In this document: in pieces, positions 21,446 to 59,163 of the stretch | Layout of the letters: every line of letters begins with the position of its first letter | Position numbering within the stretch: position 1 is the first letter of the stretch | NCBI GenBank assembly: GCA_949298985.1 | Contig: CASFYV010000029.1 | Coordinates: forward strand, 38,457-102,456 | Reading direction: 5' to 3' | From: an uncultured bacterium | Lineage (GTDB): Bacteria > Cyanobacteriota > Vampirovibrionia > Gastranaerophilales > Gastranaerophilaceae | Length of the DNA: 64,000 bases | Position numbers and translations under genes: made by a program | Notes under the pieces: model-generated | Told to the model about the DNA's origin: nothing | Database searches by the model: none | What the model saw: the letters and a program-made list of their open reading frames with translations, nothing else

Positions 21446-21520
21446 AGTTTTGATTATAGCCTAAAGTTTGGATTTATGCTATACTTAAGGAAATGTAATT
21501 TTAAAATGGAAGAGAAAATA

Positions 21521-22402
21521 ATGACAATTATATCAATATTAATAGAACCTGCAATTCTTATAATAACAGTATTTTTTCTGTTATTCATAATGACAATACT
21601 AAAAAATTATAGAAAAGTTAAATTAAATTTGTGTTCAATATATGAATACTTAAAAACTTTAAATAAAAATGAATTATCATACAGATATCAAGAATTAGAT
21701 AAATTTATGAGTTCAAACGACTTTACAAGCACTGCTTGGGAAGATTTCAAAAAAGCACTGATATTCCCGGAAAAACTATATGTAGCATCACAAAATGCTA
21801 ATAATGATAATTACAGACCTGAGATTTATTTAACCCTTGATGCTTCTTATTTTTTCAATGAAGAATCTCTTATTTATTCAAAGATTAATCACAAATTCAT
21901 ACAAACAATGCCAACCCTATTAACAGGTTTAGGTCCATTTTTTACATTTTTAAAAATGGCAATTGCATTTACCGAAGTAAACTTTGCTATAGAATCTAAT
22001 GTAGGAAATTCCCTAAACGGGCTTATTGCCAACATTCAAATAGCAGCACTTTGTTCTGTTTTTGCAGTAGGATATTCTCTTGCTTTTATGTTTATTGAAA
22101 AAATTCTATACAATAAAATGTGTAAGAAATATTATTTACTTATTCAAAAAGAATTGATACGTTTATTTGATGTTGTAACTAGTGAAAAATTCTTAATCGA
22201 TCTAGTAAAAGAATCGAAACTTCAAAATATTACTAATGAAAAAATCCTAAAATCATTACCTGAAGACTTTGCAAAAGCCGTTTCTAAAAGTATTAATGAA
22301 ACCACTACACCATATTTAGAAAACATATTATACAGCTTAAATAAATTAAACGAGCAAAACTCTAAAAACTCTGGTGGAGATATTGTTGACAAACTATTTT
22401 AG
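21521..22402 (+). CDS. MotA/TolQ/ExbB-type channel protein resembling ZorA
   Basis: 293 residues from ATG 21521, chosen for GGAAGAG 6 nt upstream; in-frame ATGs at 21476 and 21506 are possible. An N-terminal helix (about 6-28) is followed by a cytoplasmic helical domain. Two further helices carry MPTLLTGLGPFFTFLKMAIA and IAALCSVFAVGYSLAFMFI, the pattern of MotA/ExbB pore helices and especially of ZorA (LxGLGxxxTF). The C-terminal region (about 215-293) is helical and ends near the membrane-partner gene. 19 bp separate it from the MotB-like gene. No ZorC/D/E candidates are adjacent. It could also serve a different ion-driven motor. Confidence 0.65.
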   Translation: MTIISILIEPAILIITVFFLLFIMTILKNYRKVKLNLCSIYEYLKTLNKNELSYRYQELDKFMSSNDFTSTAWEDFKKALIFPEKLYVASQNANNDNYRPEIYLTLDASYFFNEESLIYSKINHKFIQTMPTLLTGLGPFFTFLKMAIAFTEVNFAIESNVGNSLNGLIANIQIAALCSVFAVGYSLAFMFIEKILYNKMCKKYYLLIQKELIRLFDVVTSEKFLIDLVKESKLQNITNEKILKSLPEDFAKAVSKSINETTTPYLENILYSLNKLNEQNSKNSGGDIVDKLF

Positions 22403-22421: not shown

Positions 22422-23111
22422 GTGAGATTAAAACTAAAAAAAGAAGATAATAGCCAAGATAATATATTTTGGGTAACAATGACAGATTTAATGACGGCAC
22501 TGGTGCTTGTTTTTATGGTTTTATTTTTTTATACATATATGACTAGTACGTATGAACGGTTAGAGAGTGGTATTGAACAACAAAAAGCCGCAGAAAATTT
22601 AGAGAAATCTTTAAAAGAACAAAATATAGAAGCTACAATTGACGGAAACAAAGGTATTGTAAAAATATCTGATTTAGAATTATTTGAAATAAACAGTTAC
22701 GAATTATCAGAAAAAGGGAAAAAATATCTCAATAAATTTGCTCCTGCTTATTTTAATTCATTATTCACAAACGATTATCTTAATAAAAATATTGCAAAAA
22801 TCATAATACAAGGTCATACTGATTCACAAACATATAAAGGAAAATTTTCCGAAGACGAACAATATATGAAAAATATGGAATTAAGCTTAAAAAGAGCATA
22901 TTCTGTTGCAAATTATATGATAAGTACCCAATATAACAAAGATAACGGAAACAAATTAAGAAAAATGATAATAGTGGAAGGTGCAAGTTATTCTTCACCA
23001 ATACTTATTAATGGGAAAGAAGATTTTGCAAAGAGCAGAAGGGTTGAATTAAAACTTGTTATGAAAAATGAGAAAAAGCAACAAGAAATAACCCAACAAG
23101 AGCAGAAATAA
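22422..23111 (+). CDS. MotB/OmpA-like protein resembling ZorB
   Basis: 229 residues. A short basic N terminus is followed by one transmembrane helix with FWVTMTDLMTALVLVFMVLF. The Asp before the helix core matches the proton-binding Asp of MotB/ZorB. A C-terminal peptidoglycan-binding OmpA domain (about 85-215) has IIIQGHTDS and a terminal RRVELKLV. A GTG start with AAAGGA upstream is used. It pairs with the preceding channel gene, as in MotAB, ExbBD and ZorAB. The 3' end overlaps the convergent chromate-transporter gene by 53 bp. Confidence 0.7.
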   Translation: MRLKLKKEDNSQDNIFWVTMTDLMTALVLVFMVLFFYTYMTSTYERLESGIEQQKAAENLEKSLKEQNIEATIDGNKGIVKISDLELFEINSYELSEKGKKYLNKFAPAYFNSLFTNDYLNKNIAKIIIQGHTDSQTYKGKFSEDEQYMKNMELSLKRAYSVANYMISTQYNKDNGNKLRKMIIVEGASYSSPILINGKEDFAKSRRVELKLVMKNEKKQQEITQQEQK

Positions 23112-25807: not shown

Positions 25808-26278
25808 TTAAGTTAAAAACTGTGCTTGATAATTGTAGTACGTCATCGTTGCATTTTGCTCACTAGGTTTGTTTGATAAACCAAACACGCTTTGAGCTTC
25901 TGTTTTTAACCCTGCAAAATAAGTCATAGCTTGACCATCAATTGCACTTTGACTCAATAGTTGAATTGCGTTATTAAACGCAGCATAATCTTTTTCATAA
26001 TCACCAGTAGCTTGAACTCCTATTTGAGCACATAAACTTGCCCAAGGTATAACTTTTTGGTTATTTTGATTATCAATCTGCTCTTGTACCTGTTTCGAAT
26101 ATTCAGCATACATTGCAGCATCTAATTTCTTCAAATCATCAGTTTTACCAGTAGGAGTAATATTAAAATCATCAAAAGCTCGTTCAAGAGCAGCTGAATT
26201 AAAAGGTACACGACCTAGATACGAATACAAATTCGCACTAGTGTAAGAATATACTCCGTTTACTGTGAAGTTTGACAT
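25808..26278 (-). CDS. small lineage-type protein of unknown function
   Basis: 156 residues, not recognised. Tyr/Asn/Ala-rich, mostly helical after residue 30, no signal peptide or membrane helix. The ATG at 26278 is used because GAGGTG precedes it; an upstream GTG at 26287 overlaps that site. It is divergently transcribed from the 26546 gene, and both have the sigma-28-like plus HLR1-like promoter layout. The downstream neighbour is the SDR gene with its own promoter. Confidence 0.6.
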   Translation of the reverse strand: MSNFTVNGVYSYTSANLYSYLGRVPFNSAALERAFDDFNITPTGKTDDLKKLDAAMYAEYSKQVQEQIDNQNNQKVIPWASLCAQIGVQATGDYEKDYAAFNNAIQLLSQSAIDGQAMTYFAGLKTEAQSVFGLSNKPSEQNATMTYYNYQAQFLT

Positions 26279-26308
26279 GATACACACCTCATATATGATA
26301 TATAACGT

Positions 26309-26370
26309 ATATCGTCATTTTTTCTAAAAACTTTAGCTTTTTTTTAATAAGTTTTACAAAACTTTACAAT
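26309..26370 (-). promoter_or_regulatory. sigma-28-like promoter with upstream perfect HLR1 match (for 25808-26278)
   Basis: Minus strand: -35 TAAAGTTT (26335-26328), 11 bp, -10 GACGATAT (26316-26309), against the FliA consensus TAAAGTTT-N11-GCCGATAA. Seventeen bp further upstream (26353-26370) the plus strand reads TTTACAAAACTTTACAAT. That fits the HLR1 consensus at every constrained position (TTTACAAA-2-TTTACAAT). Relative to the predicted start the site lies at about -51 to -68. Binding by RpaB and use of sigma-28 are inferred. Confidence 0.55.
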
Positions 26371-26421
26371 TCACTCTCCAAAAGCTTATATAACTGTATT
26401 TTTATATTTAAGAAATTTACA

Positions 26422-26484
26422 TATTTAAAGTTTTGTAACAAAAATTTCAAATTTACTAAAGTTTAGAAAAAAAAATGCCGTTAA
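26422..26484 (+). promoter_or_regulatory. sigma-28-like promoter with upstream HLR1-like site (for 26546-28327)
   Basis: Plus strand: -35 TAAAGTTT (26457-26464), 12 bp, -10 GCCGTTAA (26477-26484). An HLR1-like element TATTTAAAGTTTTGTAAC (26422-26439) ends exactly 17 bp before the -35. It is in the same orientation relative to transcription as in the divergent promoter. The shared core of the two elements is TAAAGTTTTGTAA. Confidence 0.55.
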
Positions 26485-26545
26485 AGATGAAAAAGTAGGA
26501 TTGTACTGTCAAATATTAAAACGAAAATAATGAAAGGAGTATTAT

Positions 26546-28327
26546 ATGGAAATTAATGCACAAAGCGTAGCAAAAGCTATTAGCGAAGGAAAAATCAGTT
26601 ATTTTGAAGCTCTCAATACCTATAAGGGTATAAAAGAAGAAGAAATCAATGCAGAATTAAGAAAATTAGGAGGTGACCCAGGAGCTCCTATTGATGGGTT
26701 TGAAGCAAAAAATAAACCTAAAAACGAAAAAGTTTTGTATTTAGTCAAAGACGATACCTATTATCAAAATGAAAGAATAAAATACAACAATGAAGCTGTC
26801 CAAGCAAAAGAAAAGATGAAAGAAGCTTGGAATAATGGAAATTATTTAGATGCAGCTTTATCATTCGGCAAAGGACTTTTAGCCGCCTATAGAAAAGAAA
26901 CAACGCCAGAAAATATGAGCGAAGCTATGAGACAAGATGCAGGATTTGGAACTATTGCTAAATATGCAGTAGCACTTGGAGCCGCTGGAGCAGCTTTTGC
27001 AAGTTGTACGAATGAGATTTCTCAAAATGTAATGATTCCAATAAATCAAAATAGTTCATTAGAAGAAGCTATAAATGCATTGTTAACAGGTCAAGAAGTT
27101 ACAAATCAAATTCTAGCAGCTATTTTAGAAAAAGAAATAAGTAACGGAGCAACTCTGGAAGATATAAAAAATTTGGTAGGAAATAATACATTTGTCTTGG
27201 ATGCAATTCTTAATGCAATAACTGAAGGAAACAATCTATTAACAGAAATAAGAAATTCTATTGATTCCGGAAACGAAGCGATATTAGAAACCTTAATCGA
27301 TATTAAATCAAGTATAAAAGTAATTTCAGATTTAGTTGTTTCGCAACCAGATTATAGCAAACAATTAGAAGAAATTAAAAACGCCATTGAAAAAGGAAAT
27401 AGTAGTACCCAAGATATTATAGCAATGTTAAATAATTTATTTAACGAAGTTGTTAAGAATGGAGATACACAAGTTGATATCTTAGCAAAACTTGAAGAAA
27501 TTCAAAACTCTAATAAATCAGATGGTGAAAAATTAGCTGCAATGTTAGAATTATTGAAAAACATAGATTCTACAACTCAAGATATCAGTAAAAAACTGGA
27601 TGAAATCAAAGATAAATTAGATTCATTATCTGGAACAGGTGGTATTAGTAAAGAAGATATAAATGCTATTATTGATGCTATTAAAGAAAATGGTGAAAAA
27701 ATTGATGCAACAAATCAATTGTTAGCAAAAATGCAAGATCAGGATGAAAAATTCCAAGCTCAAGTCTTAAAATTACTAGCAAATGTCGGAGCTGATTATA
27801 CAGATGTTCTTAACAAAATATTAGATGCAGTAAACAATGGCAACGCTAAACTAGATGATATTACTAAATTGCTTGGTAAAATGCAAAATCAAGATTTAGA
27901 ATTCCAAAAGAATGTCTTGAATGCTATTGAAAAATTTGAAGCTGGAAATATTGAAGCATTACTTAATAAAGTACTCGAAAAAATGGATAGTAACACATCT
28001 AAAATTGTAGATGCTATCAATAAAATAGGCGATAAAATAGATATTGAGGCAAACAAAAACGATGAACGATTTAAAAAAGTTGATGCATTTATGAAAGAAG
28101 TCCTAGATAAATTGTCGTCAGCTCCAGGATATGATAATAGTAAAATTCTAGAAGTATTAAGTAAATTAAGTAATATGTTAAACACCAAACTTGAAGAAAT
28201 TCTAAATGCAATCAAAGATCATGATGTTCATGTAACAGTTGATGTAACAGGAAAAGTCACTTGCGAATGTGATTGCGGGAAACCTCACGAAGGTATTCTA
28301 GGTGACTTAGAAGATGCTTTAGGATAA
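26546..28327 (+). CDS. long helical repeat/coiled-coil protein of unknown function
   Basis: 593 residues, family not recognised. Residues 1-130 are mixed charged sequence with no N-terminal signal. Residues 137-153 form a hydrophobic Ala/Gly-rich stretch ending AAFASC, with Cys154 in a lipobox-like setting but far from the N terminus. From about 160 to 560 there are many imperfect repeats of about 35 residues with the pattern ILxAIxxGNxxLxxI (for example LNAITEGNNLLTEI and LDAVNNGNAKLDDI), giving a long helical rod. The C terminus has CECDCGKPH, a possible metal site. Shine-Dalgarno GAAAGGAG. Probably a cell-surface fibre or tether; inferred only. Confidence 0.65.
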   Translation: MEINAQSVAKAISEGKISYFEALNTYKGIKEEEINAELRKLGGDPGAPIDGFEAKNKPKNEKVLYLVKDDTYYQNERIKYNNEAVQAKEKMKEAWNNGNYLDAALSFGKGLLAAYRKETTPENMSEAMRQDAGFGTIAKYAVALGAAGAAFASCTNEISQNVMIPINQNSSLEEAINALLTGQEVTNQILAAILEKEISNGATLEDIKNLVGNNTFVLDAILNAITEGNNLLTEIRNSIDSGNEAILETLIDIKSSIKVISDLVVSQPDYSKQLEEIKNAIEKGNSSTQDIIAMLNNLFNEVVKNGDTQVDILAKLEEIQNSNKSDGEKLAAMLELLKNIDSTTQDISKKLDEIKDKLDSLSGTGGISKEDINAIIDAIKENGEKIDATNQLLAKMQDQDEKFQAQVLKLLANVGADYTDVLNKILDAVNNGNAKLDDITKLLGKMQNQDLEFQKNVLNAIEKFEAGNIEALLNKVLEKMDSNTSKIVDAINKIGDKIDIEANKNDERFKKVDAFMKEVLDKLSSAPGYDNSKILEVLSKLSNMLNTKLEEILNAIKDHDVHVTVDVTGKVTCECDCGKPHEGILGDLEDALG

Positions 28328-46018: not shown

Positions 46019-46804
46019 CTAGTTAATTCTTTGGAACATATAGCCGATTCCTCGAGCAGTCAATATTAATTCAGGATTTGTAGGGTCAGCTTCTAGCTTA
46101 GAACGTAATCTTGAAATATGAACATCTACTACTCTTGTATCAATTCTATGATCTGCTGGATATGACCAAACATGTTGTAAGATTTCGTTTCTTGAATATG
46201 CTTGACCTGAATTGTTTACCAACAATTCTAATAAACTGAATTCCATACCTGTTAAACGTATTCTTTCATTTTTTCTGAATACTTGTCTTCTAGCTGTATC
46301 AATTTTTATAGCTCCGGTTGTAATTATGTTTTTAGCATTTTTACCACTACCAGATGTTGAACCTGATGAAGAAGACGCAGGAATAATAACATCTTTACTG
46401 ATAGTTCTTCTTAATACTGCTTTTACTCTTGCTTCAAGTTCTTTTGGAGAGAATGGTTTTATTACATAATCATCTGCTCCAAGCTCTAAGCCTGTAATTC
46501 TTTCTGAAACATCTCCCAATGCTGTTAATATAATGATTGGAACATCTGATGTTCTTCTAATTTCTCTAGTTACACCGTAACCATCCATCTTTGGCATCAT
46601 GACATCTAATACTACCAAATCAGGATTTGTTTTATTGAAAACTTCGACAGCTTCTTCACCATCTTCTGCAACTACAACGTCGTAACCGACCATCTTAAGA
46701 CGAGTTTCTAAGATTCTTCTGATACTTGCTTCATCATCCGCAACTAATATCTTTTGACGAGTTTCGCCTTCGCTCATCTCTTGTAATTCTTCATTCTCTG
46801 CCAT
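46019..46804 (-). CDS. rpaB: RpaB-like OmpR-family response regulator
   Basis: 261 residues. The receiver domain (about 15-135) has the phospho-acceptor Asp67 in LVVLDVMMPKMDGYGV, the acidic pair DD at 23-24, and a Lys in YVIKPFSPKELEARV. A winged-helix domain (about 165-258) contains GMEFSLLELLVNNSGQAYSR and DTRVVDVHISRLRSKLE. The stretches VADDEASIRRILETRL and ITGLELGADDYVIKPFSPKE closely follow cyanobacterial RpaB, which controls high-light and redox-responsive genes via HLR1 sites. A Ser/Gly-rich linker (about 140-155) joins the domains. The cognate kinase is not in the window. Confidence 0.88.
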   Translation of the reverse strand: MAENEELQEMSEGETRQKILVADDEASIRRILETRLKMVGYDVVVAEDGEEAVEVFNKTNPDLVVLDVMMPKMDGYGVTREIRRTSDVPIIILTALGDVSERITGLELGADDYVIKPFSPKELEARVKAVLRRTISKDVIIPASSSSGSTSGSGKNAKNIITTGAIKIDTARRQVFRKNERIRLTGMEFSLLELLVNNSGQAYSRNEILQHVWSYPADHRIDTRVVDVHISRLRSKLEADPTNPELILTARGIGYMFQRIN

Positions 46805-46826: not shown

Positions 46827-46844
46827 TTTACAAAAATTTATAAA
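46827..46844. promoter_or_regulatory. HLR1-like site upstream of rpaB
   Basis: TTTACAAAAATTTATAAA: first block perfect, second block one mismatch (TTTATA for TTTACA), correct 2-bp gap, 22 bp before the rpaB ATG. Suggests autoregulation. Confidence 0.4.
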
Positions 46845-57364: not shown

Positions 57365-58253
57365 TGAATTAAATGAAGAAAAACGTTTAGATGTATATCT
57401 TGCAGAGTATTTGCAAGATTTTTCGCGTTCAAGAATTCAGGCTGAAATAAAAAAAGGAAATGTATTATTAAATTCAAAAAATGTTAAACCTTCGTGTATT
57501 ATAAAACCGGAGGATGTTGTTGAATTAAATATACAAGATGATGTAAATAAAATTTTACCGGAGGATATTCCTTTGGACATTGTTTGGGAAGATGAGAATA
57601 TGCTTGTTGTTAATAAACCTTCCGGTATGTTAACTCATCCAACTAATATAGAAACGTCGGGTACTTTAGTAAATGCATTATTGAATTATTGTGGTAATAA
57701 TTTATCAGATATAAATGGGGTATTTCGCAGAGGTGTATTACATAGACTAGATAGAAATACTTCAGGTTTGTTAATGATTGCAAAAAATAATTTAGCTCAT
57801 GAATATCTAGTAAGTGAAATGAAAGCTGGAAGGATAGAAAAAAAATATAGGGCGATTGTTGCCGGAGTAATTAATGAAGATGAATTTGTTATCAATAAGC
57901 CACTAGGAAGAAATCCTAATCAACCTCATAAAATGGCTATAATTGAAAATGGGAAAGAAAGTATTTCAAAAGTTAAAGTTCTGGAACGTTTTAAAGAGGC
58001 TACTTTAATTGAAGTGCATTTAATAACAGGAAGAACTCATCAAATTAGGGTTCATTTATCAAGTATAGGACATCCTGTCTATAATGATACTCTTTATGGT
58101 TTTGGAAAAATGAAAATAAAAACGCAAGAACAAGTTTTGCAATCATATAAGTTGACATTTTCAAAACCTTTTAATGGAGAAATATTGTCTTTTGAAATTT
58201 CAGAAGATGAAAAATTTACAAAGGTTATTAATTATTTAAAATCACAAAATTAA
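57348..58253 (+). CDS. RluA/RluD-family pseudouridine synthase
   Basis: 301 residues. N-terminal S4 RNA-binding domain (about 1-70), catalytic HRLDRNTSGLLMIAKN with the Asp, and GRTHQIRVHLSSIGHPVYND. Likely modifies 23S rRNA as RluD does; the exact target is not decided. The stop overlaps the convergent sigma-factor gene by 4 bp. Confidence 0.92.
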   Translation: MKIVIDELNEEKRLDVYLAEYLQDFSRSRIQAEIKKGNVLLNSKNVKPSCIIKPEDVVELNIQDDVNKILPEDIPLDIVWEDENMLVVNKPSGMLTHPTNIETSGTLVNALLNYCGNNLSDINGVFRRGVLHRLDRNTSGLLMIAKNNLAHEYLVSEMKAGRIEKKYRAIVAGVINEDEFVINKPLGRNPNQPHKMAIIENGKESISKVKVLERFKEATLIEVHLITGRTHQIRVHLSSIGHPVYNDTLYGFGKMKIKTQEQVLQSYKLTFSKPFNGEILSFEISEDEKFTKVINYLKSQN

Positions 58254-59065
58254 ATAATACTTTTTTTAAGTCTTTCAGAACGATTTTCACTAAGTAAATT
58301 TTTCAATTTCATAATAGCTTGAGCATGAAGTTGTGAAATTCTGGATTCAGAAACGTTTATAGTTTCTCCAATTTCTTTTAAAGTCATGTTTTCGTGATAA
58401 TAAAGAACCATGATAGTTCTTTCTCTTTCAGGCAGTCTCTTCAAAGCATTCTCCAATTCTTTTTTTACATCTTTTTCTTCCATTTGTTCATGCGGAGCTA
58501 GTGTATGAGAATCTTGAATCGTGTCAATAATTTCTAAATCTCCGTCTGAAGAACCTTTTTTTTCATATATTGAAGTGACTGTTGTATCTTCTGCTAATAA
58601 TTGTTCTACTTTTTCTCGTTCTATACCTAAGTAAGTTGCAATTTCAGAGTTTGTTGCAGATCTACCATATTGTTTTTTTAATAATTCTTGTGCTTCTTTG
58701 ACGTCTTTAATTTTTTTTCTTACGCTTCTAGGTAAGAAATCTTGAGATCTGATTTTGTCAATAATATTTCCTCTAATTCTTACAAGAGCGTATGTTTCAA
58801 ATCTCGCACCCATTTTAGGAGTGTATTTTTCAATTGCATCAATTAAGCCTTCTACTCCGTAACTTGAAATATCTTCGTATGAAAATGTTGGAGGTAGGGC
58901 TACTTTAACACGTCCGACAACATATCTTGTTAGGTAAATGTATTGAAGGATGAGAGCATCTCTAAGAGCTTTGTTTTCATGGTCATCAAAATACTTAGCC
59001 CACATTTCGGCTAATTCTTCATTTGAAACTCTTTTAATATTTTTATAAGATGTATCCTGTTCCAT
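58250..59065 (-). CDS. fliA: FliA/WhiG-type (sigma-28 family) RNA polymerase sigma factor
   Basis: 271 residues. Region 2: FSYEDISSYGVEGLIDAIEK then GARFETYALVRIRGNIIDKI and RSQDFLPRSVRKK. Region 3: SATNSEIATYLGI. Region 4: LPERERTIMVLYYHENMTLK and then NVSESRISQLHAQAI. The spacing and RSQDFxPRSVR favour the sigma-28 group over SigB/F. No flagellar gene is in this window, so its regulon may be other than motility. Three sigma-28-like promoters occur in the window. Confidence 0.87.
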   Translation of the reverse strand: MEQDTSYKNIKRVSNEELAEMWAKYFDDHENKALRDALILQYIYLTRYVVGRVKVALPPTFSYEDISSYGVEGLIDAIEKYTPKMGARFETYALVRIRGNIIDKIRSQDFLPRSVRKKIKDVKEAQELLKKQYGRSATNSEIATYLGIEREKVEQLLAEDTTVTSIYEKKGSSDGDLEIIDTIQDSHTLAPHEQMEEKDVKKELENALKRLPERERTIMVLYYHENMTLKEIGETINVSESRISQLHAQAIMKLKNLLSENRSERLKKSII

Positions 59066-59145
59066 CCCTCTCGTGTCCCAATAAAAACATGTCTCATTCT
59101 ATTGTAACGTTTTATTAAGAAATAGCTATCATATATATAGATGAA

Positions 59146-59163
59146 ATTGTTAAAATTTGTTAA
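59146..59163. promoter_or_regulatory. HLR1-like direct repeat between the sigma factor and 59246 genes
   Basis: ATTGTTAAAATTTGTTAA; on the minus strand TTAACAAA-TT-TTAACAAT, each block one mismatch from HLR1. It lies in the divergent region of the sigma factor and a secreted Tyr-rich protein. Confidence 0.3.

Follow-up and report, generated by a model that had tools for sequence, protein, structure and literature searches.

Promoters read by sigma-28 have the consensus TAAAGTTT for the -35 box and GCCGATAA for the -10 box, with a spacer of 11 base pairs (bp). RpaB, a light and redox regulator of cyanobacteria, acts through a direct repeat, HLR1 (consensus KTTACAWW-N2-KTTACAWW), and in the available part of a 2026 review sites at about -45 to -66 are described as activating and those at -38 to +23 as repressing (PMC13421787). 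It is known that this regulator also occurs outside photosynthetic lineages. In the accessible portions of the respective papers RpaA, RpaB and NblS were described as kept without photosynthesis, with another function being possible (Di Rienzi 2013, PMC3787301), RpaB was reported from each of the three orders of Melainabacteria known at that time, with RpaA and NblS kept too (Soo 2014, PMC4040986), RpaA and RpaB were kept without photosynthesis in a termite-gut study (PMC5877343), and flagella were present or lost across these lineages (all three papers). The word sigma is absent from the main texts of these three papers, and no link between RpaB and sigma-28 was found among the listed open-licence papers, judged by titles and first lines of abstracts, on RpaB or on Gastranaerophilales and Melainabacteria with sigma, flagella or regulon. 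Here we analyze a divergent promoter pair (26278..26546) in a 64,000-nucleotide (nt) stretch of DNA, called the window, from an uncultured bacterium of the Gastranaerophilaceae (assembly GCA_949298985.1, contig CASFYV010000029.1, positions 38,457 to 102,456 of the forward strand). The first-pass annotation of this DNA had proposed that both promoters join sigma-28-like boxes to an HLR1 site at identical spacing and serve lineage-specific genes co-regulated as a set by RpaB and sigma-28. Composite promoters of the genus carry sigma-28 boxes with, in most of those examined, an HLR1 element ending 17 bp upstream, and it is quite probable that RpaB acts there as an activator of sigma-28 RNA polymerase. 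Because most of the examined sigma-28 promoters in this gut genus, which is related to cyanobacteria and non-photosynthetic, match HLR1 at one fixed distance, a large number of genes, mostly of unknown function, are likely turned on there by this ancient light-response protein.

Composite promoters in the window and in the genus

The minus-strand promoter of the pair contains the direct repeat ATTGTAAAGTTTTGTAAA (26353..26370), the sole match to the HLR1 consensus in the window without a mismatch, as had been claimed for every constrained position, and this repeat is kept in orthologues. It is followed after a 17-bp gap by the -35 box TAAAGTTT (26328..26335) and after an 11-bp spacer by the -10 box GACGATAT (26309..26316), then by a Shine-Dalgarno sequence and an ATG at 26278. 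The plus-strand promoter has the HLR1-like repeat TATTTAAAGTTTTGTAAC (26422..26439) with one mismatch in its distal half, the same 17-bp gap, the -35 box TAAAGTTT again (26457..26464), a 12-bp spacer and the -10 box GCCGTTAA (26477..26484), and the ATG of the downstream gene lies at 26546. The -10 boxes differ from GCCGATAA at two positions in the minus and at one position in the plus promoter, and 13 bp, TAAAGTTTTGTAA, are common to both. On checking the sequence, the coordinates, boxes, spacers, gaps and shared segment reported earlier were all correct. The divergent pair is also present in a related species (L111, metagenome-assembled genome BRZ_DG__bin80) together with a homologue of the plus gene. 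The distal half of the plus repeat is degenerate there too, and the spacer of the plus promoter has the standard 11 bp, so the 12-bp spacer in the window represents one extra A in a run. Alignment of the window's minus promoter with 12 others of the same gene family showed that half-sites, A-tract, -35 box, -10 box and leader are kept, with the distal half degenerate in one of the 13 promoters and a gap of 16 in one. The composite therefore persists in the orthologous upstream regions that were checked.

To estimate the spacing without bias, all 85 exact sigma-28 cores of five fully listed genomes, among 37 genomes searched, were chosen regardless of their upstream sequence. HLR1 with at most two mismatches was found exactly 17 bp upstream of the -35 box in 55 of the 85, compared with three each at gaps 16 and 18 and with 14 at gap 27, which is one repeat unit farther upstream. 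When three mismatches were allowed, 67 of 85 had the element at gaps 15-19 (59 at gap 17 and four each at gaps 16 and 18), as opposed to 6 of 425 same-sized ranges farther upstream, and in 34 promoters the element at gaps 15-19 was free of mismatches. The half-site core GTAA stood at -22 relative to the -35 box in 49 promoters and at -32 in 56, with both in 39 and at least one in 66, while other offsets averaged 0.9%. In a second set of 142 promoters, selected by the proximal GTAA only, the distal GTAA lay exactly 10 bp upstream in 106 and at any other of 45 offsets in at most three. Five clearly unrelated loci (Photorhabdus twice, Catenovulum, Lachnospiraceae and Thermacetogenium) were left out of this count and kept in the column frequencies; locus L160, titled Acinetobacter, was retained in the set, and its site sequence is also found in G018:C133.

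The majority pattern can be written as TGTAAA-NWWT-TGTAAM-AATTT-N4-AAAAA-NNC-TAAAGTTT-T-N9-T-GCCGATAW, and 11 bp is the usual spacer between the boxes of composite promoters. Downstream of the -10 box two columns are conserved over the 85 sites, a T at +7 (0.79) and a purine at +8 (0.95), and this suggests a transcription start about 8 nt past that box; for the minus promoter of the window it would fall near 26301. Counted from such a start, the -35 box would span -34 to -27 and HLR1 -69 to -52. The earlier proposal had put HLR1 close to activating positions; the location predicted here, itself dependent on the predicted start, is near the published range of about -66 to -45 (PMC13421787, in the part available), with a distal edge that is discussed below.

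The combined motif GTAA-N18-TAAAGTTT-N11-GMCGWTAW, with at most one mismatch, was found in all 22 genomes of the genus, the window's own included (11-30 sites each, 420 in total), and its reversed control in none of the 22. The sigma-28 core alone, at the same stringency, occurs 8-44 times per genome of the genus against 0-4 for the reversed control. Outside the genus six of 15 genomes of the order had one to five composite sites (14 sites; two control sites over the 15 genomes). A survey of 386 genomes of the phylum by exact matching, with groups counted by hand and a control total of one, gave 5-19 sites in each of 13 genomes of the genus (151 in total), 2-15 sites in all four genomes of one other genus of the family (38 in total) and two sites in one of three genomes from other families of the order. 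The exact composite was absent from the ten genomes elsewhere in the class and from the 203 elsewhere in the phylum. In GTDB contigs it was present in at least 115 stretches; of the 80 titles listed, most name Candidatus Gastranaerophilales, an uncultured bacterium or a gut or rumen assembly, and some of the remaining 35 may be unrelated.

Alternative explanations and candidate regulators

That this pattern is a product of chance in an AT-rich genome could be argued from the -35 box by itself, since TAAAGTTT with at most one mismatch is no commoner than expected (298 in the window, 309 in shuffles). It is in combination that the boxes depart from expectation. The core TAAAGTTT-N10-13-GMCGWTAW occurs seven times in the window's own genome (1.79 Mb, 31 contigs) and never as the reversed control, 12 genomes simulated by a first-order Markov model gave 0.08 cores and no composites per genome, and the genus yielded the 420 composites mentioned above against none. 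In six of the seven own-genome cores GTAA stands exactly 18 bp before the -35 box, and with GTAA added and at most three mismatches allowed this genome has 16 sites and one control site. HLR1-like sites are enriched as well, both at two mismatches or fewer (34 in the window, 17.5 in shuffles) and without mismatches (42 in the own genome, two in the control). The combined motif foreseen by the first-pass annotation is far above both the reversed and the simulated expectation, and chance from AT-richness, rejected by reversed-pattern controls, simulated genomes and HLR1 shuffles, keeps a negligible probability. Another possibility is that the shared upstream sequence is a promoter cassette copied by duplication, with spacing fixed by common descent and not by function. 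The boxes and A-tracts are indeed common to many sites per genome, and the window pair shares 13 bp. However, the boxes are kept while the sequence between them varies, the spacing is kept across species, and 212 predicted downstream proteins, which were picked by script and include some repeats of one site, fall into 64 clusters, of which 38 are singletons. As gaps and flanks diverge and the targets belong to many clusters, a copied cassette is judged very unlikely.

Both proteins expected to act on these promoters are encoded in the window. RpaB, the OmpR-family response regulator proposed to bind HLR1, is encoded at 46019..46804 on the minus strand (NCBIfam NF045944, 354.8 bits, cut-off 330), and the sigma factor of the FliA/WhiG family proposed to read the -35 and -10 boxes at 58250..59065, also on the minus strand (TIGR02479, 233.8 bits, cut-off 189.6). 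The latter is the only match over the cut-off in its genome, and such a sigma factor was found over the cut-off in 35 of the 37 genomes. A search of solved structures with RpaB (E<=1e-30, 22 sequences) gave MtrA, RegX3 and RpaA among the relatives and no entry named RpaB. For the histidine kinase adjoining another regulator (L086) no NCBIfam family scored above its cut-off, and no kinase of RpaB was recognized. We also observed an HLR1-like site with one mismatch at 46827-46844, 22 bp before the start codon of rpaB, through which autoregulation of rpaB is possible, and two HLR1-like sites with two mismatches each (59101-59118 and 59146-59163) upstream of the fliA/whiG gene, so the gene for the sigma factor itself may be under RpaB control.

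It is known that OmpR-family regulators other than RpaB also bind direct repeats of 10-11 bp. The sites could accordingly be real and bound by another regulator of this family, such as an RpaA homologue; three OmpR-family regulators are encoded in the genome, and RpaA has been reported in the lineage as well (PMC3787301, in the portion available). The published RpaB consensus is nevertheless matched at all constrained positions at 26353-26370 and in 34 of the 85 promoters, and of the three regulators only that of the window is over the RpaB cut-off of 330 bits, the other two reaching 200 and 208 bits, which makes binding by a relative improbable. We regard it as similarly unlikely that HLR1 serves as a repressor site or a phase-dependent switch, where upstream-bound RpaB would hold sigma-28 polymerase off until dephosphorylated. 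RpaB does repress from some positions in cyanobacteria, but the repressing HLR1 sites overlap -38 to +23 (PMC13421787, in the text available), while the predicted end of the site described here, at about -52, is clear of both boxes.

Activation of sigma-28 polymerase by RpaB is the explanation we favor, and RpaB binding, activation and transcription starts are here inferred from sequence. Phosphorylated RpaB would bind both TGTAA half-sites from the same side of the DNA helix, over about -69 to -52, and contact RNA polymerase, probably at the alpha C-terminal domain, which is the usual contact of activators bound upstream, so that transcription of the targets would rise. The sigma-28 regulon may be gated chiefly by RpaB.

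Downstream genes and the flagellar machinery

An open reading frame preceded by a Shine-Dalgarno sequence starts 15-120 nt downstream of 77 of the 85 sites; read in the reverse direction the same 85 sites gave one such frame, and 1680 random positions gave 178. The largest clusters of downstream proteins are a 51-amino-acid (aa) family, the GMAASQARLL family, the MAETFNL family and the MSNFTVNGVY family, to which the minus gene of the window belongs. This gene (25808..26278, minus strand) codes for a 156-aa protein of unknown function, MSNFTVNGVYSY..., a recurrent member of the predicted regulon for which neither Pfam (E<=1) nor NCBIfam (E<=0.1) gave a match. It has 445 homologous clusters, and among the 120 listed there are two named sources besides the window, hypothetical proteins of a Gastranaerophilales and of a Cyanobacteria metagenome-assembled genome; its AlphaFold models were poor (mean pLDDT, the predicted local distance difference test, 64.9 and 62.6 in two runs). 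The plus gene (26546..28327, plus strand) encodes a further predicted member of the regulon, a 593-aa protein of unknown function, possibly a coiled coil, with no Pfam family over its cut-off and weak SMC-type matches. It has 172 homologous clusters, and no named source besides the window among the 120 clusters listed.

Pfam was searched with 100 downstream proteins (84 from relatives and 16 from the own genome, the long ones cut at the locus end). Fourteen families were matched, each in one or two members, with FliD in two, HD-GYP with GAF in two and EF-hands in a few, and none of the 14 was a flagellin, motor, chemotaxis or photosynthesis family. With FliD in two of 100, the targets are not mainly flagellar, motor or chemotaxis genes as in the classical late flagellar regulon gated by FlgM. 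The FliD genes have a full HLR1 in G013 and the distal half alone in G008, and the two HD-GYP genes stand behind sigma-28 cores without a good HLR1. The co-regulated set proposed in the first-pass annotation is supported by a motif that exceeds controls, lies upstream of genes and is kept in orthologues, and by both proteins being encoded in the window; its purely lineage-specific character does not hold, FliD of G013 being behind such a promoter. HLR1 sites also occur without sigma-28 boxes.

Thirty of the 42 mismatch-free HLR1 sites of the own genome were checked, and a sigma-28-like core was found by script at 11 and by eye at one more (L297). At five HLR1 loci of this genome without sigma-28 boxes (L293, L294, L309, L320 and L322) CTTTATATA-like or CTTTATTTATA-like sequences follow at a distance of about 29-50 nt, and these loci may represent a second class of HLR1 promoters, of sigma-70-like type.

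FlgM (PF04316, E<=0.001) was found in none of the 37 genomes, while the same search was positive in Escherichia coli, Bacillus subtilis and Thermotoga maritima. Full-length FlhA was not found in the window's genome, where the match covers the C-terminal part only, and a full-length export gate of the FlhA type is present in all 21 genus mates. Two proteins of the FlhA type and two of the FlhB type are encoded in most genomes of the order. A protein whose match to FHIPEP is confined to the C-terminal half of that family (G000:C26:103292-104347, L206, 493 aa) occurs in the own genome and in 35 of 36 relatives (not in G012), beside the full-length FlhA proteins in the order. In this species flagella have apparently been lost. 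As neither FlgM nor, in the window's genome, a full-length flagellar export gate was detected, the usual checkpoint on flagellum assembly would give way to RpaB input; the sigma-28 regulon would be uncoupled from flagella and tied to the signal sensed by RpaB's kinase. A broader scenario is possible and we hold it tentatively, at less than even probability: RpaB predates or outlived photosynthesis and in this gut genus became the master gate of sigma-28 in the place of FlgM, and a flagellar regulon was turned into an RpaB-controlled programme of dozens of lineage-specific, possibly type-III-exported proteins which survived loss of the flagellum. Two further arrangements were seen. At locus L084 of a relative two FlhA-type genes are adjacent, the first over the FlhA cut-off and the second partial at the locus end, and in the window an OmpA-family protein (22422-23111) with a weak MotB-like N-terminus, below the cut-off, follows a protein without a Pfam family (21476-22402) as an operon-like pair.

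Several observations, in addition to the repeat-binding habit of other OmpR-family regulators, weigh against activation of sigma-28 polymerase by RpaB. Eighteen of the 85 sigma-28 cores have no HLR1 at gaps 15-19 even with three mismatches, and in one of the seven own-genome cores GTAA is missing from the fixed position. HLR1 is therefore not an obligatory part of these promoters. In the other direction, no sigma-28-like core was found by script at 19 of the 30 mismatch-free HLR1 loci, and RpaB is therefore not dedicated to sigma-28 and appears to have targets without it too. The predicted distal edge of HLR1, -69, is 3 bp outside the published activating range, and the exact composite is rare in the rest of the family, with one or two sites in each of 25 of the 153 genomes outside the two rich genera, although RpaB itself has been reported much more widely in Melainabacteria, in all three orders known in 2014 (PMC4040986, in the portion available). 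As to flagella, FlgM is short and divergent, which makes its absence by a Pfam profile weak evidence, and FlhA may be missing because of a gap in the assembly (the genome is 94% complete). One FlhB-like protein, below both the FlhB and the SctU cut-offs and thus possibly of flagellar or of other export, is also kept in the own genome, where genus mates have two.

Comparison with described systems

The role of RpaB in these bacteria has been left open by its discoverers since 2013 (PMC3787301, in the available part), and a large, specific and testable set of predicted targets can now be named. The composite offers a promoter architecture in which the site of an OmpR-family regulator is joined to sigma-28 boxes at a preferred spacing, and with it a regulatory handle on dozens of unannotated gene families of gut bacteria. 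It also suggests how the regulon of an alternative sigma factor could outlive the organelle it once served.

In comparison with the class III flagellar promoters read by FliA in E. coli and Salmonella, the promoters described here have the same boxes and 11-bp spacer, a FliA/WhiG sigma factor is encoded in the window and FliD is found downstream. They differ in that most of those examined carry an RpaB-type site at a preferred spacing, FlgM was not detected, few downstream proteins belong to flagellar families and the boxes are still there in a genome where full-length FlhA was not detected. The low-light activation of photosynthesis genes by RpaB and HLR1 in Synechocystis and Synechococcus shares with this system the 18-bp direct repeat, the RpaB equivalog and an upstream site, here predicted to lie near the activating range. 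Here, in contrast, the partner is a pair of sigma-28-type boxes at a 17-bp gap, no photosynthesis family was among the 14 Pfam families downstream and the exact composite was missing from all 203 genomes searched in the phylum beyond the class. A further parallel is in the RpaA, RpaB and NblS homologues of Melainabacteria, the same proteins kept without photosynthesis, for which no targets are named in the accessible parts of the two descriptions (PMC3787301, PMC4040986), whereas the present analysis provides a concrete predicted target set together with a promoter architecture.

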